Shown: positions 1,058 through 30,506 of the stretch, piece by piece
Layout of the letters: each line of letters begins with the position of its first letter
How positions within the stretch are numbered: position 1 is the first letter of the stretch
Notes under the pieces: generated by a model
What the model was told of the DNA's origin: nothing
Seen by the model: only the letters and a program-made list of their open reading frames with translations
Database searches by the model: none
NCBI GenBank assembly: GCA_029262315.1
Contig: JAJCZP010000008.1
Coordinates: forward strand, 1-33,062
Source of the DNA: Deltaproteobacteria bacterium
GTDB lineage: Bacteria; Desulfobacterota; Binatia; UTPRO1
DNA length: 33,062 bases
Reading direction: 5' to 3'
Translations under genes and position numbers: made by a program

Positions 1058-2662
1058 ATGGCAGACGCGCCCGTCGACGTCCTGATCATCGGTGCCGGGG
1101 CATCGGGCGCCGCCCTGGCGTGGAGCCTCGCGGACACCCGCATGAACATCCTCTGCCTCGAGCAAGGCGATTGGATGGATCCCGAGAAATACCCGGCAGC
1201 CGGACGCGATTGGGAGATCCGAGGGTTCGGCGACTTTAGCGTCAGCCCCAACACACGCGGTCGGCCCGAGGACTACCCGGTCAACGACAGCGATTCGCCG
1301 ATCGCCGCCTCGATGTTCAACGCCGTCGGTGGCAGCACGATTCTGTATGCGGCCCATTTCCCGCGCTTTCGCCCATCGGACTTCAAGGTGAAAACCCTCG
1401 ACGGGATCGCCGACGACTGGCCCCTCGACTACGAACGGCTCGCACCTTACTACGACGAGAACGCTCGCATGATGGGCGTCGCAGGTTTGGCGGGCGACCC
1501 CGCATACCCGCCGAAGGCGTTGCCGCTGCCGCCGGTCCCGCTCGGCAAGCTCGGCGAAACGCTCGCCGGCGGCTTCAACAAGCTCGGGTGGCACTGGTGG
1601 CCCTCGGACAGCGCCATCGCCACGCAGGACTACGAAGGCCGCGCCGCCTGCATCAACGCGGGACCGTGTCTCACCGGCTGCGCCCAGGGCGCCAAAGCCA
1701 GCACCGACATCACCTACTGGCCAGTGGCGATCCGGCGCGGCGTGACGCTCAAGACCCGCTGTCGCGTGCGCGAGATCACCGTCGGCCCCGACGGCCTGGC
1801 CGATGGCGTCGTTTACTACGACGCCGACGGCGCCGAGCGGAAACAACGAGCCGAAGTCGTCGTGCTCGCGTGCAACGGCATCGGCACGCCGCGCCTGCTC
1901 CTGAATTCGCGCTCCAAACGTTTTCCCGAAGGACTCGCCAATCGCAGCGGCATGGTCGGGCAAAACCTCATGTTCCATCCGTACGCCATGGTCACCGGCC
2001 TCTTCGAGGACCGACTCGAGGGCTACAAGGGACCCATGGGATGCTGCCTCATGAGTCAAGAGTTCTATGAAACCGACCGCACACGCGGATTCGTCCGCGG
2101 CTATTCCATCGAGACGTTGCGCGGCCTGCCCCCGGTGTCGACCGCGCTCTGGGGCATGACGCAGGGCAGGATCCCCTGGGGTGCGGAGCATCGGCGCGCC
2201 TACGATGCGATCTTCGACCGCACCGCCGGCATGGTCATCATCTGTGAGGATCTCCCAGAGGGCCACAACCGTGTCACACTCGATCCCGAGCTCGTCGATA
2301 CCGACGGAATCCCGGCCCCCAAGGTCACCTACCGCTTGAGCGAGAACAGCACCCGAATGCTCGCCCACGCCGTCGCCCGCGGTAAGGAGGTGCTGGAAGC
2401 CGCCGGCGCCACCGAGACGTTCGCGGAGGCGCCCTTGCCGATCGCCGGCTGGCACCTCATGGGAACGGCGCGCATGGGAACCGACCCCGCGACCTCGGTC
2501 GTCAACGAGTGGGGCCGCGCCCACGACGTCAAGAACCTCTTCATCATCGATGGCAGCATCTTCGTCACCGCGGCGGGCGTGAATCCGACGAATACGATCC
2601 AGGCATTGGCCCTCTACATCGGGGATATGATCAAGAAGAACCTCGCCAATCTCTTCGACTAG
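1058..2662 (+). CDS. GMC-family FAD oxidoreductase (gluconate 2-dehydrogenase large-subunit type)
   Basis: A 534-aa flavoprotein with an N-terminal Rossmann FAD motif GAGASG (about 12-17), a VGGSTILYAAHFPRF segment near 90-105 typical of the GMC FAD-binding region, and a C-terminal catalytic block with His466 (GWHLMGTARMG) and Asn509 (GVNPTNT). GMC enzymes oxidise alcohols or sugars with FAD as hydride acceptor. The ATG at 1058 follows AGGAGG (1046-1051) by 6 nt and is preferred to the GTG at 1055. No signal peptide is visible. The next gene encodes a gluconate-dehydrogenase subunit-3-like protein, the usual partner of this clade, so the two probably form a complex. The substrate is unknown; an alcohol or aldehyde feeding the upstream E2 complex is only a guess. 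Confidence 0.93.
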   Translation: MADAPVDVLIIGAGASGAALAWSLADTRMNILCLEQGDWMDPEKYPAAGRDWEIRGFGDFSVSPNTRGRPEDYPVNDSDSPIAASMFNAVGGSTILYAAHFPRFRPSDFKVKTLDGIADDWPLDYERLAPYYDENARMMGVAGLAGDPAYPPKALPLPPVPLGKLGETLAGGFNKLGWHWWPSDSAIATQDYEGRAACINAGPCLTGCAQGAKASTDITYWPVAIRRGVTLKTRCRVREITVGPDGLADGVVYYDADGAERKQRAEVVVLACNGIGTPRLLLNSRSKRFPEGLANRSGMVGQNLMFHPYAMVTGLFEDRLEGYKGPMGCCLMSQEFYETDRTRGFVRGYSIETLRGLPPVSTALWGMTQGRIPWGAEHRRAYDAIFDRTAGMVIICEDLPEGHNRVTLDPELVDTDGIPAPKVTYRLSENSTRMLAHAVARGKEVLEAAGATETFAEAPLPIAGWHLMGTARMGTDPATSVVNEWGRAHDVKNLFIIDGSIFVTAAGVNPTNTIQALALYIGDMIKKNLANLFD

Positions 2663-2690
2663 GAATGCGACAACACCAGAGGCAGACCCG

Positions 2691-3158
2691 ATGAGCGCAA
2701 CGACGACCACACAGCCGATCTCCGCCGCGCAGGTCCGGACGCTGGCAAGCGTGCTCGACGAGATCGTCCCGCCAAGCGACGATGCCAGGTTCCCGGGCGC
2801 CGGCGCGCTTGGGCTCGCAGCCTATGTGGAGCAGACGATGGCGCACACGCCCGATCTCCACCAGATGACCATGCAGGGGCTCGCAGCTCTCGATCGGCTG
2901 GTGCAGGCCAAAGGCGCCGAGAGCTTCACGGCGCTTTGCCGCGCGGACAGGCTCGCGATGCTGCATGCGCTGACGACAACGGAGCCGGCGTTCCTCCCAA
3001 CGCTGACCTTCCACACGTATGTCGGCTACTATCAGCACGAGCGTGTACTCGAGGCGCTCCACCTCGACCCACGGCCGCCCTACCCCAAGGGATTCGAGAT
3101 GCCACCGAGCGACCTAACGACGCTGTTGGCACCGGTGCGGCGGCGGGCAGAACGATAG
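2691..3158 (+). CDS. Gluconate 2-dehydrogenase subunit 3 family protein
   Basis: A small 155-aa helical protein matching the subunit-3 family, with the recognisable C-terminal signature VGYYQHERVLEAL followed by DPRPPYPKGFEM. It starts 28 nt after the GMC gene with an AGAGG ribosome site, consistent with an operon. In characterised complexes subunit 3 accompanies the flavoprotein and a cytochrome c subunit and often has a Tat signal. Here there is neither a Tat signal nor a cytochrome gene alongside, so the pair may be cytoplasmic or use another electron acceptor. It probably stabilises the GMC partner. Function is inferred from family and neighbour. Confidence 0.85.
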   Translation: MSATTTTQPISAAQVRTLASVLDEIVPPSDDARFPGAGALGLAAYVEQTMAHTPDLHQMTMQGLAALDRLVQAKGAESFTALCRADRLAMLHALTTTEPAFLPTLTFHTYVGYYQHERVLEALHLDPRPPYPKGFEMPPSDLTTLLAPVRRRAER

Positions 3159-3207
3159 CGGGAAGACGCTCGGTGCCGACCCCCTCGCGCCTGAGACATC
3201 ATTGACG

Positions 3208-4410
3208 ATGCTGAATCCCGACGAAACGCGCATCGCCCTGGCCATCCCGCCGCTCTGGCGCCTGGCGTTCCGCCCGCTCTTTCTCGCGGGACCGCTGTTC
3301 TCGATCGTCGCGGTCGCTTGGTGGGTTTATTTCTGGTCGGGGATTCCATCATGGCAGCCCTACGGCGATCCGATCTGGTGGCACGGCCACGAAATGCTCT
3401 TCGGCTTTGCCGCCGCCATCGTCGTCGGCTTCCTCCTGACCGCCGTCCAAACCTGGACCGGCGTGACCGGCATGCGCGCGCGGCCGTTGATGGCATTGGT
3501 GTCGATCTGGTTGCTCGCACGCTTCCTGATCGCGTTCGGGAACACGCTGCCCCCAACGGTGGTCGCGGTTGTCGACTGCCTGTTCCTCCCGGCTGCGGCG
3601 CTGGCACTCGCGCGCCCGGTCGTCCGCGTCCGACAGTGGCACAACCTCTCGCTCGTCGCCCTGCTTCTCTTGCTCGCGCTCGTCAACGTCGCCAGTCACG
3701 CCGCCCTGCTGTCCGATGACCGCGCCATGGCCACCCGCGCCCTGCACGGCGCCGTGATCTCGATCACTATCATCATGGCGGTGATGGGAGGGCGCGTGAT
3801 TCCGTTCTTCACCGCCCGAGGCACGAGCAGTAAGCCGCCCCCTCCGCTCCCGTGGCTCGACGTACTGAGCCTGACCTCGCTCGCCGCACTGTTGGTGGCG
3901 GCTGCCGTCGGCATGACGACGCGCCCCTCCGGGTGGCTGACGGCCGTGGCGCTCCCGAGTGCGGTCCTGAACGGCGGGCGCTTTGCGCGCTGGGGTTTCC
4001 AGCGGACCCGGCGCGTGCCGCTCCTCTGGTCACTCCATCTCGCCTACGCGTTCATTCCCCTCGGCCTATTCGCGCTCGCGTTGGCCGGCTCGACGCATCT
4101 GGTCAGCGTCGGCGCAGCGATTCACTGCTTCACGGCCGGCGCCATGGGCAGCCTCATTCTGGCCATGATCGCGCGCGTGTCACTAGGGCACACGGGGCGC
4201 CCGCTGAGCCTGCCACGTGCCATGCCCGTCGCCTTCGCGCTGATCGTAGCTAGCGGCATCGTGAGACTCGCCGCGGCATTCGTGGCCCCCGGCCACGCGC
4301 CCGAAGCCATCATCATCGCTGGCGGCCTCTGGATCCTCGCGTACGGGATCTACTGCTGGAACTATGCCCCGATGTTGTGGGCGGCGCGCATCGACGGCCG
4401 TCCCGGCTGA
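3208..4410 (+). CDS. nnrS: NnrS family polytopic membrane protein
   Basis: A 400-aa, mostly hydrophobic protein with about 12 predicted membrane spans. The N-terminal hallmark WHGHEMLFGFAAAIVVGFLL with a following QTWTG motif identifies NnrS. Members are haem- and copper-containing inner-membrane proteins linked to nitric oxide tolerance and denitrification, relieving nitrosative stress by an unclear mechanism. Conserved His residues are visible at WHGHE and in the later Ala/Gly-rich spans (HCFTAGAMG, LGHTGRPL). The ATG at 3208 is chosen over the in-frame TTG at 3202; no strong Shine-Dalgarno is evident. No nitrite or NO reductase genes are nearby, so here it may serve detoxification alone. 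Confidence 0.9.
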   Translation: MLNPDETRIALAIPPLWRLAFRPLFLAGPLFSIVAVAWWVYFWSGIPSWQPYGDPIWWHGHEMLFGFAAAIVVGFLLTAVQTWTGVTGMRARPLMALVSIWLLARFLIAFGNTLPPTVVAVVDCLFLPAAALALARPVVRVRQWHNLSLVALLLLLALVNVASHAALLSDDRAMATRALHGAVISITIIMAVMGGRVIPFFTARGTSSKPPPPLPWLDVLSLTSLAALLVAAAVGMTTRPSGWLTAVALPSAVLNGGRFARWGFQRTRRVPLLWSLHLAYAFIPLGLFALALAGSTHLVSVGAAIHCFTAGAMGSLILAMIARVSLGHTGRPLSLPRAMPVAFALIVASGIVRLAAAFVAPGHAPEAIIIAGGLWILAYGIYCWNYAPMLWAARIDGRPG

Positions 4411-4568
4411 AGCGCGCCGCTCATGCCCGGGCTTCGGGCGGGCACGAGCCGACAAGCGTTTTCGTTCCCGACATGACAAACGTCATCGATTCGCATGACC
4501 AGTCCACCGCGGAGGCTGGTTTCCTGCTGGCGCTGCTTGACGCGATGTCCCACGGCTCTTACGGTTCT

Positions 4569-4584
4569 AAACAAACGTTTGTTT
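4569..4584. promoter_or_regulatory. Perfect 16-bp palindrome, probable repressor operator
   Basis: AAACAAACGTTTGTTT is a perfect 8+8 inverted repeat, centred at 4576/4577 and 32 bp upstream of the hydrolase start, in otherwise GC-rich DNA. Palindromes with AAAC/GTTT half-sites are typical of TetR-family operators. No regulator gene lies next to it, so the binding protein is unknown. Confidence 0.55.
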
Positions 4585-4615
4585 GTTCTGCCAACATCCT
4601 GCGAGGAGCCCACAC

Positions 4616-5614
4616 ATGCACTCTGCTGAGCCGGTCACTGCTTCCACGTTCGCGGGCGAATGCGCCACGGCCGAGGCCGCCGCACTGGAAGTCCCGGGCC
4701 CCAGGTTCGAGGGAACCGTCAGACTCCGAGGCGGCCGCTCCATCGGCCTCGCCGAGTATGGATCGCGCACGGGTATGCCCATCCTCTGGTTTCACGGCAC
4801 TCCCGGGGGACGCCGGCAGATACCGCCGCTGGCGCGCCAGCGAGCGAGCGAACAGGGCGTGCGTCTGGTCGCGCTTCAACGACCCGGAATGGGGGATTCG
4901 ACGCCCCACCTCTACCGGTCCGTGCTCGAATGGGCCGACGACGTCGGCGAGATCGCCGACCAGCTCGGCATCGACCGCTTCGGACTGGTAGGGCTCTCCG
5001 GGGGCGGACCCTACGTTCTCGCCTGCGCACATCGCATGCCCGGGCGGGTCATCGCGGGCGCGATCCTGGGCGGCGTTGCACCGGCGCGCGGGCCCGATGC
5101 TCCGCTCGGCGGCGCGGTCGGCTTTGCCGCCCAGAATCGACTCCTCCTACGTGTGCTGCGCGAGCCACTCGCCCGAATCTTGTGGGCGACGAGCGCGGCC
5201 CTGCGGCCGCTCGCCTCGCAAGCCTTCGATTTTGCCATTAAGGTGCTTCCGTCCGGCGACCAGGACGTCATGGGCCGGGCCGAGATGAAAGGCATGTTCA
5301 TCGACGACATTCTGCACGCAGCGCGGTACCAGATGCACGCACCCGTGTACGACCTGATCCTGTTCACGCGCCGCTGGGGTTTCTCCCCGCGGGACGTGCG
5401 GGTGCCCATTAGACTCTGGCACGGCGACGCTGACAATCTGGTACCTCTGGCGCACGCGCAGCACTTGGCGGAGATCATTCCCGACGCGGAGCTGCAGGTC
5501 CGGCCCCGTGAAGGCCATCTCGGAAATCTCGACGCGGTCGACGAGATCTTCAGCGCGATCGCTCGCCACTGGCCCACCGATGCCTCGGGGGACGCGTCGG
5601 CCACGAGCCACTGA
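4616..5614 (+). CDS. Alpha/beta fold hydrolase
   Basis: A 332-aa cytoplasmic hydrolase. The oxyanion-hole loop HGTPGG, the nucleophile elbow GLSGGGP, an acid residue in WHGDADNLVP and a C-terminal His in REGHLG make a complete Ser-Asp-His triad. The longer open frame begins at 4583, inside the upstream palindrome; the ATG at 4616 is preferred because GAGGAG (4603-4608) sits 7 nt before it. The family covers esterases, lactonases and haloalkane or epoxide hydrolases, and I cannot assign a substrate. The operator-like palindrome directly upstream suggests inducible expression by a TetR-type repressor encoded elsewhere. The radical SAM gene follows after 80 nt. Confidence 0.9.
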   Translation: MHSAEPVTASTFAGECATAEAAALEVPGPRFEGTVRLRGGRSIGLAEYGSRTGMPILWFHGTPGGRRQIPPLARQRASEQGVRLVALQRPGMGDSTPHLYRSVLEWADDVGEIADQLGIDRFGLVGLSGGGPYVLACAHRMPGRVIAGAILGGVAPARGPDAPLGGAVGFAAQNRLLLRVLREPLARILWATSAALRPLASQAFDFAIKVLPSGDQDVMGRAEMKGMFIDDILHAARYQMHAPVYDLILFTRRWGFSPRDVRVPIRLWHGDADNLVPLAHAQHLAEIIPDAELQVRPREGHLGNLDAVDEIFSAIARHWPTDASGDASATSH

Positions 5615-29001: not shown

Positions 29002-29076
29002 CGAAACGATCCTGCTCGGCATCGGTGACGCGGAGGAGCCTTGCGAACCCGGTCGCCGGCGTGAGAAGGGACATCT

Positions 29077-29820
29077 GTGCCGCGATCCATCCTTTCCGTT
29101 CTGCTCGCCCTGTGCCTCGTGGCAACCGGGTTTCCCGTGTCTCGAGCGGACGCGGTGGGCGGTCCCGGGGATGGGCCGGGGACGCGAATCGGCGGGTTCT
29201 TTCGCGAGCTCGTCGGATATCTAAAGCGACGCGACCGGGTCAGCGTCGGCGACATGGCGCCGGATTTCGACCTGGTGCCGCTGCGCTTCCATGACTTCGC
29301 ACGCGACGAGCCCGACGAACAGCGGAACGCCCGCGCCGACGCGTATCGCGGAGTGGCACTCCGCAGCTTCCGGGGCGTGAGGCCGGTGGCGCTGATCTTC
29401 GGGAGCTACACCTGACCACCCTTTCGGGACCAGGTGGGTGCCCTCGACAAGCTCTATCAGCGATACCGCGACCGGGTGGAGTTTCTGCTCGTCTACATCC
29501 GCGAGGCGCATCCCGCTGATGGTTGGAGTGCGCAGGTCAACCCCAGGCTCCGCTACGTGAAGCAGCCCGCGACGAGCACGCAGCGATTCCAGGTCGCCAA
29601 CAGCTGCGTTACCGATCTCCAGATCTCGATCCCGTGTCTCATCGACAGCATGGATGACGCCACCATGAAGGCCTACAATGCCCTCCCGGATCGTCTCTAT
29701 CTGGTCGGCAAGAACGGTCGCATCGCCTTCAAGGGCCGACATGGCCCTTTCGGATTCAAGCCCAGGGAGCTCGAAACAGCGATCGAAGCCGAGCTCGCCG
29801 CGCTCGAGGGCGCGCCGTGA
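29077..29820 (+). CDS. Exported iodothyronine-deiodinase-like selenoprotein (in-frame TGA read as Sec113)
   Basis: A 247-aa thioredoxin-fold protein read through an in-frame TGA at 29413-29415. A conventional caller would split it into 29077-29415 and 29434-29820, both in the same frame. The TGA falls in GSYT-U-PPFRDQ, matching the GSCTUPPF active site of vertebrate deiodinases. The deiodinase signature YIREAHPADGW (near 137-147) and the C-terminal YNALPDRLYLVGKNGRIAFKG also align with that family, so homology continues on both sides of the codon. GTG 29077 follows GAGAAGGG, and a signal peptide (ILSVLLALCLVATGFPVSRADA) indicates export. A bSECIS-like hairpin follows at the expected distance. 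The reaction in bacteria is unknown; reductive dehalogenation or peroxide/thiol chemistry is possible. The last base of its stop is the first base of the paralog's ATG. Confidence 0.9.
29424..29447 (+). promoter_or_regulatory. Candidate bacterial SECIS element
   Basis: Hairpin inside the coding sequence: outer stem 29424-29428 with 29443-29447 (TCGGG with CCTCGA-type pairing, one G-U), inner stem ACC (29429-29431) with GGT (29437-29439), and apical loop AGGUG (29432-29436). The loop begins 16 nt after the UGA. E. coli formate dehydrogenase has a CAGGU-containing apical loop about 17 nt after its UGA, which SelB recognises. Folding was done by eye. Confidence 0.65.
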
Positions 29821-30506
29821 TGCGCCGCGCCCGAGCGGTGAACGAGTGCGGAGAGGAGCGCTGGCGACGCGTTCTCGTCGGCGTCGCTCTCGTCGGGCTG
29901 GTCGTTGGGGCCTCACGCGGAATCGCAGAAACCGATAACGCAGACCTGGAACCACCCGGTCCCGCCGTCGGCGCACTGGCACCGGACTTCGCGTTGACGC
30001 CCCTGCGCTTCTACGACTTCCGACTCGACGAGCGCGAGATCACTCGCCAAAACGCGTGGGAGCTCTACGAGCCCGTGCGCCTCGGCGACTTTCGGAACAA
30101 GTGGCCAGTGGCTCTGGTGTTCGGGAGTTCCGCATCCGTGCTCCGCGCCGATGCCCGCGCGCTGGAGGCGCTGCACCGGAGCTACGCGGATCGGGTACAG
30201 TTCCTGTTCGTGTACATCCGGGAGGTCAGGCCACCCCCCGGCGCCGAAGCGCCTCGCGACCCGGAGACCGATCTGGAGCGGATGCGGATCGCCAACGCCT
30301 TCGTAGGCCGGATGGGTCTCTCGATCGCCTGTGTGGTCGACGCGATGGACGACGCCGCCATGAAGATCTACGCAGCGGAGCCGGCCCGCCTCTATGTGGT
30401 GGAGAAGGAGGGAGGGATCGCGTTCGCGAGCGATCCCACGACTGCGGGGCTGGATCTCGGAGCGTTCGAGGCGGCGTTGGTGTCGGCGACCGCGAGTCCA
30501 CGCTAG
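29820..30506 (+). CDS. Deiodinase-like paralog lacking the Sec/Cys active site
   Basis: A 228-aa exported protein starting at ATG 29820, sharing one base with the previous TGA. The signal segment is VLVGVALVGLVVGASRGIAE. It aligns with the upstream selenoprotein along its length: AVGALAPDFALTPLRFYDF, WPVALVFGS, YADRVQFLFVYIRE, VDAMDDAAMKIYAAEPARLYVV. However, the active-site stretch reads GSSASVLR where the paralog has GSYTUPPFR, so a Ser replaces Sec and one residue is lost, and the EAHPADGW motif is replaced by EVRPPPG. It therefore lacks the redox residue and is probably catalytically inert: a partner, regulator or structural subunit, or a decaying copy. The frame is intact over 228 codons, which favours a maintained function. 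Confidence 0.85.
   Translation: MRRARAVNECGEERWRRVLVGVALVGLVVGASRGIAETDNADLEPPGPAVGALAPDFALTPLRFYDFRLDEREITRQNAWELYEPVRLGDFRNKWPVALVFGSSASVLRADARALEALHRSYADRVQFLFVYIREVRPPPGAEAPRDPETDLERMRIANAFVGRMGLSIACVVDAMDDAAMKIYAAEPARLYVVEKEGGIAFASDPTTAGLDLGAFEAALVSATASPR

Follow-up and report, generated by a model that had tools for sequence, protein, structure and literature searches.

Introduction

In 2005, selenocysteine (Sec) proteins resembling the deiodinases were described from bacteria, along with bacterial SECIS elements and cysteine-containing counterparts, and were proposed to act in redox reactions (PMC1088965). The family is also treated in a later survey (PMC2398784) and in two reviews, which assign it a UxxC motif (PMC9312934, PMC13188914). 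As for the mammalian enzymes, they must be dimers, and the relay of Dio2 has been described as consisting of Ser127, Thr129, Tyr157, Glu160, His162 and His182 (PMC11592359). A first-pass annotation of the locus studied here had stated that deiodinase-like selenoproteins occur in bacterial genome and metagenome surveys, and this is borne out by the surveys published since 2005 (PMC1088965); the gene at 29077-29820 is a further member of this known group. Our literature searches joining Binatota with selenoproteins, and those on "deiodinase family protein", returned nothing.

Results and Discussion

A single reading frame across a TGA codon

The window, i.e., the whole stretch of DNA analysed (33,062 nucleotides of contig JAJCZP010000008.1, class Binatia), very probably encodes at 29077-29820 a single selenoprotein related to the thyroid-hormone deiodinases of animals (Table 1). 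On the plus strand, this stretch can be translated as a single frame of 247 codons with a GTG start and a terminal TGA (29818-29820). Only one further TGA is present, at codon 113 (29413-29415), in the context GSYT-TGA-PPFRDQ, and there is no frameshift, just as the first-pass annotation had read it (two in-frame halves around one TGA). It had also expected standard annotation to split the gene; indeed, table 11 yields two ORFs of 112 aa (29077-29415) and 128 aa (29434-29820).

Table 1. Features of the deiodinase-like locus (positions in the window).
Feature	Position	Strand	Remarks
Ribosome-binding-site-like GAGAAGG	29063..29069	+	7 bases upstream of GTG; inferred from the sequence
Sec-containing deiodinase-family gene	29077..29820	+	247 codons and stop
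Putative signal peptide	29077..29154	+	~26 residues; hydropathy, cleavage place guessed by eye
In-frame TGA, Sec113	29413..29415	+	frame reading and TGA in relatives
SECIS-like hairpin	29426..29442	+	6 pairs, 5-base loop AGGTG; covariation in relatives
His145	29509..29511	+	equivalent of Dio3 His202; invariant in 45/45 (alignment)
Cys177	29605..29607	+	candidate resolving cysteine; Cys in 38/45, role inferred
Sec-less paralogue (P0002)	29820..30506	+	start overlaps stop of the Sec gene (TGATG)

Relatives were sought in genome contigs with peptide patterns that omit the Sec codon, which gave at least 563 stretches, and the 80 best were retained. In every one of these 80 loci, the main copy carries TGA as the Sec codon, and none of the loci stops there or loses homology behind it; being the most similar ones, these loci say little about more distant relatives. 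The closest bacterial relatives, judged by these best 80 loci, come from many phyla; they are Sec forms, and annotation with table 11 breaks them up. Within the class, the deiodinase profile PF00837 found 19 matches in 12 of 78 genomes; 16 of these matches contain one in-frame TGA and three contain none, among the latter the window's own paralogue (see below). An alignment search with the gene pair gave matches in 34 of 148 genomes of the class. The protein was matched in 18 of 395 genomes drawn from the phylum, mostly weakly, and the plasmid collection held one weak match only (30.6% over 49% of the query).

Comparison with the two closest relatives revealed 105/133 and 98/131 identical residues after the TGA, and less conservation before it (48/100 and 45/100). 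The mismatches after the TGA are distributed over codon positions 1, 2 and 3 as 21/12/58 and 26/16/75, respectively. By these counts, the part downstream of the TGA evolves as protein. A sequencing error at this codon, in what would otherwise be an ordinary thioredoxin-like gene with Cys, is practically refuted as an explanation, as the TGA is present in all 80 best relatives, from many assemblies, with a hairpin behind it; the sole point in favour of an error is the absence of selC discussed below.

Several of the relatives' loci have features of their own. In L032 and L033, the Sec domain stands behind several CxxCH-like motifs, reminiscent by eye of a fusion to a multihaem cytochrome, and in L068, L075, L076 and L077 it follows a hydrophobic segment resembling, again by eye, a membrane domain of MauE/DoxX type. 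L140 (positions 1783-5492, recorded as Planctomyces sp.) carries three deiodinase-like copies, in which the Sec codon is TGA twice and TGC once. In L073 (minus strand, from ~597 on; WUPFC) and L104 (3015-3185; TUPVC), nearby frames of the peroxiredoxin/thioredoxin type contain an in-frame TGA in the redox motif and are perhaps further selenoproteins.

The SECIS-like hairpin

In ten sequences from the class, a hairpin of six pairs occupies bases 14-30, counted from the T of the TGA, and is paired in 91.7% of the cells. The helix was first drawn by eye, and the same helix was then obtained from RNAalifold. None of 500 shuffles attained its covariation score or its number of cells with double changes; the number of pairs with double changes (three) was equalled in 377 of the 500 and is thus no more than shuffles give. 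In a survey of downstream hairpins in 92 distinct sequences (of 99), the best hairpin scored 16.6 on average vs 11.6 in codon shuffles, and a sequence's own score was reached by 12.5% of its codon shuffles. The loop has a G in its first two bases in 88/92 sequences, compared with 38.5% of the shuffles.

The copy in the window has one G.G mismatch among its six pairs. In the survey of 92 sequences, a different hairpin was preferred for the window (score 13, shuffled mean 11.6), the hairpin region folded alone had no unusual stability (z +1.20), and an Rfam scan around the gene gave no match up to E 1. The family thus has a SECIS hairpin directly 3' of the TGA with a G early in the loop, and the copy in the window is weak if taken alone. 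On comparative grounds, SelB and Sec-tRNA, guided by this hairpin 3' of the codon, would insert Sec113 at the TGA.

Selenocysteine machinery and the missing selC

The first-pass annotation had named selA, selB, selC and selD as the genes to be looked for. Three of them were found by profile search of the genome with scores above the cut-offs, i.e., selA (541.5 bits) and selB (357.1 bits), adjacent on contig C145, and selD (306.2 bits) on contig C79, so that Sec machinery is not altogether absent; SelA and SelB carry the expected Pfam domains. The selD gene (L018) lies in a 760-residue frame whose N-terminal half looks NADH-dehydrogenase-like by eye; where SelD itself has either Sec or Cys, the protein reads RCGGCAAK, with Cys (again by eye).

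The fourth gene, selC, was not found in the draft assembly (298 contigs) with the Rfam model, with a model constructed from ten tRNA-Sec genes found in relatives or with a sequence pattern. The two model searches scored 150 of 861 (Rfam) and 150 of 6425 (relatives-built model) first-look candidates. The usual tRNA-Sec of this group reaches at least 69 bits and should therefore rank first among the candidates. The best Rfam matches were tRNA-Ser and tRNA-Leu, and those of the relatives-built model were tRNA-Ser, other tRNAs and unnamed pieces; Rfam gave no match on the two contigs with sel genes. ARAGORN, which was run on the fetched loci and on three stretches of the genome, classified the top matches as tRNA-Ser, -Leu, -Tyr and others. 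Nine of the ten loci matched by the relatives-built model (all but L210) were passed through it, and L209, L211, L213 and L214 gave no tRNA; in L209, L211 and L214 the letters read CTTGAAA (anticodon TGA), not TCA. L214 and L211 are tRNA-Ser-like pieces 14 kb apart (contig C87, 8356-8436 and 22373-22459) with a common 3' end, which resembles the attachment sites of an integrated element.

Among the 12 relatives' genomes with the gene, 11 have a tRNA-Sec match above the cut-off, and ARAGORN identified the 11 best loci as tRNA-SeC with the anticodon TCA. The exception is G448 (1200 contigs), which possesses the same gene pair as the window. The class searches found no copy of the gene in five other genomes of the window's taxonomic family, and ARAGORN recognised no tRNA-Sec among their 13 best loci. 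We consider a gap in the assembly the likeliest explanation for the missing selC, and absence throughout the taxonomic family is a possible alternative.

Another reading is that of a decayed gene, in which the TGA is a real stop and the species has lost Sec decoding along with selC; the unsuccessful selC search in the 298 contigs, the five gene-less genomes of the same family and a hairpin weaker than most would all agree with such a loss. We regard it as very improbable, because the 247 codons contain one TGA and no other damage, the codon-position bias downstream of it is strong, selA and selB keep their domains, and G448 likewise has the pair and no selC match in its 1200 contigs, as gaps would give. 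With TGA in all 80 best relatives, homology across it, the hairpin and selA/selB/selD, Sec at the deiodinase position, as claimed in the first-pass annotation, holds up well: incorporation of Sec at codon 113 is, on sequence evidence, highly probable.

Family membership and predicted fold

The read-through protein matches PF00837 over residues 85-237, TGA included, with E 8.5e-32 and 110.8 bits (curated cut-off, 27 bits). Mouse DIO3 is matched over residues 85-239 (4.5e-24) with FGS-x-T-U/C-PPF aligned, and mouse DIO2 with 5.4e-19. A value of 3.5e-57 was obtained with NF038285, "deiodinase family protein", at profile positions 190-340 of 347; the score of 194.4 bits is below the whole-protein cut-off of 250, and the N-terminal half of this profile has no counterpart in the protein. 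A comparison of the recoded 247-aa protein with redoxin profiles had also been proposed; PF00578 scored narrowly below its cut-off (24.9 vs 26 bits).

An AlphaFold2 model of the Sec protein (45 sequences, mean pLDDT 82.4) was compared with known structures. Foldseek placed DIO3 (5.4e-13) and DIO2 (7.3e-13) ahead of all others (next, 3.7e-9), and so did VIA-align (Z 19.7 and 19.2; next, 16.9). The product is thus predicted to have the deiodinase fold, which is thioredoxin/peroxiredoxin-like. Family assignment by the first-pass annotation is supported in this respect, with PF00837 matching across the TGA and DIO2/DIO3 nearest in predicted fold; as the name of an enzyme, "deiodinase" fares less well, since several substrate-site residues of the animal proteins are not kept.

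The active site and the probable reaction

In the alignment of 45 proteins, S110, Sec113, Y140, E143, H145, R206, G223 and P224 are invariant. Somewhat less strict are W150, conserved in 37 of the proteins, position 177, with Cys in 38, and T112, for which conservation is at least 90%. The Ser, Thr, Tyr, Glu and first His of the Dio2 relay (as given in PMC11592359) are all present in the window protein. The second relay His (Dio2 His182, Dio3 His219; Dio3 residue numbers counted from Sec170) is absent: Pro164 aligns there, and Pro occupies this position in 9/9 rows of alignment A3. Furthermore, Dio3 Phe258 and Arg275 are replaced by Pro204 and His222, respectively, and the proximal Cys of the animal deiodinases by Tyr111. 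The protein is thus deiodinase-like around the selenium and not around the hormone. As several of the animal residues around the thyronine are missing, thyroid-hormone deiodination by this protein appears unlikely.

The same residues bear on the possibility that the enzyme is a strict reductive dehalogenase, stripping iodine or bromine from halogenated aromatics outside the cytoplasm as the animal enzymes do from thyronines. The family, the Sec, the retained equivalents of Dio2 Ser127, Thr129, Tyr157, Glu160, His162 and Trp167 (PMC11592359) and a predicted fold nearest DIO2/DIO3 are compatible with it. However, His219, Phe258, Arg275 and the proximal Cys of Dio3 correspond to Pro164, Pro204, His222 and Tyr111, and no gene for halogenated compounds was recognised adjoining the Sec gene, so we consider this strict version quite unlikely; dehalogenation as the physiological reaction is likewise improbable.

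The most likely reading is a redox enzyme outside the cytoplasm and not a thyroid-hormone deiodinase. It is probably a Sec-dependent enzyme, which would reduce peroxides, disulfides or organohalides. The target of Sec113, which is surrounded by Ser110, Thr112, Tyr140, Glu143, His145 and Trp150 as in the deiodinases, would be an electrophilic atom of the substrate (oxygen, sulfur or halogen). Resolution of the oxidised selenium would then fall to an outside thiol or to Cys177, a candidate resolving cysteine located in the predicted helix 167-180.

Export

Hydropathy is compatible with a signal peptide, and on this basis the protein is likely to be exported: the N-terminus that follows the GTG is hydrophobic, with a Kyte-Doolittle mean of 3.1 in its best stretch of 12 residues. 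A candidate hydrophobic N-terminus was found in only 44 of the 80 best relatives (of at least 563); export is therefore not a family trait. Exported Sec enzymes are not unusual, as periplasmic formate dehydrogenases and NiFeSe hydrogenases illustrate. Export as such, proposed in the first-pass annotation, is thus compatible with the hydrophobic N-terminus, and its remark that this is unusual for a Sec enzyme is not upheld.

The overlapping Sec-less paralogue

The gene directly downstream encodes a paralogue sharing 42% identity with the Sec protein over 187 columns. An in-frame TGA that would make it a second selenoprotein was sought and none was found. According to the alignment, it has neither Sec nor Cys in the motif, Arg for His145 and Phe for Cys177. 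Its model (pLDDT 81.9) is closest to DIO2 and DIO3 (3.2e-9 and 6.3e-9), with ResA close behind (9.7e-9). A P450 gene precedes the pair and a MarR-like gene follows it; neither is claimed as part of it.

The same gene order with overlapping stop and start is found in two other genomes of the class, G409 and G448; the start of the G448 paralogue would be TTG, and the ORF upstream of that pair is short-chain dehydrogenase-like (by eye). A search with a Sec-less profile detected such a partner among the best 80 loci in L095 and L096 only, which are the loci of these two genomes; the profile also matched the extra copies in L140 and a very weak piece in L104. A further paralogue on contig C50 of G448 was not counted, since by eye it seems to repeat the truncated contig end C1058 almost exactly. 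In 94% of 200 bootstrap trees, a branch separates the three Sec-less proteins from all others. As the tree is midpoint-rooted and the Sec-less branch of L096 is very long, the Sec-less group probably, though not certainly, arose only once.

Loss of Sec, His145 and Cys177 together could mean that 29820-30506 is a dying duplicate without function and not a partner, and the divergence of its relatives (74/192, 84/210 and 69/192 identical amino acids; long tree branches) could be read in the same way. However, three genomes from two families keep the frame open, each with the stop/start overlap, the mismatches favour codon position 3 (93/77/125, 93/75/122 and 91/83/127 for positions 1/2/3), and a block around PLRFYDF...EITR.NA is shared, which makes decay somewhat unlikely. 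The recurrence of the overlapping pair in G409 and G448 suggests that the paralogue acts as a regulator or as partner in a heterodimer, and the dimers needed by the mammalian deiodinases make a heterodimer a natural hypothesis. We tentatively propose that the paralogue is a stable partner of the Sec protein, as half of a heterodimer or as a regulator. The complete two-gene system, with an active Sec half and an inactive, co-translated Sec-less half forming a heterodimer outside the cytoplasm, is a more speculative and on balance improbable version of this. Overall, one selenoprotein gene for a probably exported Sec-dependent redox enzyme accompanied by a candidate Sec-less partner is in our opinion the best explanation of the locus, and a quite probable one.

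Comparison with known systems

The peroxiredoxins AhpE and Bcp and the ResA-like thiol oxidoreductases share the fold predicted for the window protein (Z 15-17), which, unlike them, has no CxxC and resembles them less than it resembles the deiodinases, both in sequence and in fold. Animal DIO2 and DIO3 (4tr3, 9h48) are its top matches in sequence and in predicted fold. The likeness is concentrated in FGSxTUPPF and in the Ser/Thr/Tyr/Glu/His/Trp surroundings of the selenium; in contrast to the animal genes, the window gene has a bacterial SECIS inside the gene. With the deiodinase-like selenoproteins of the Sargasso Sea and GOS surveys (PMC1088965, PMC2398784), the protein has in common the Pfam family, Sec at a TGA, a bacterial SECIS and a bacterial host, as far as these proteins are described there. 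The UxxC motif assigned to the family in the two reviews differs from the UPPF of the window, and Cys at +3 occurs in 0/80 of the best copies. To this known group, the present analysis adds a SECIS consensus, the residue differences between the bacterial and animal proteins and the Sec-less overlapping neighbour. The alignment, the consensus hairpin, the residue list and the occurrence of the Sec-less neighbour in three genomes make the function of these proteins testable.
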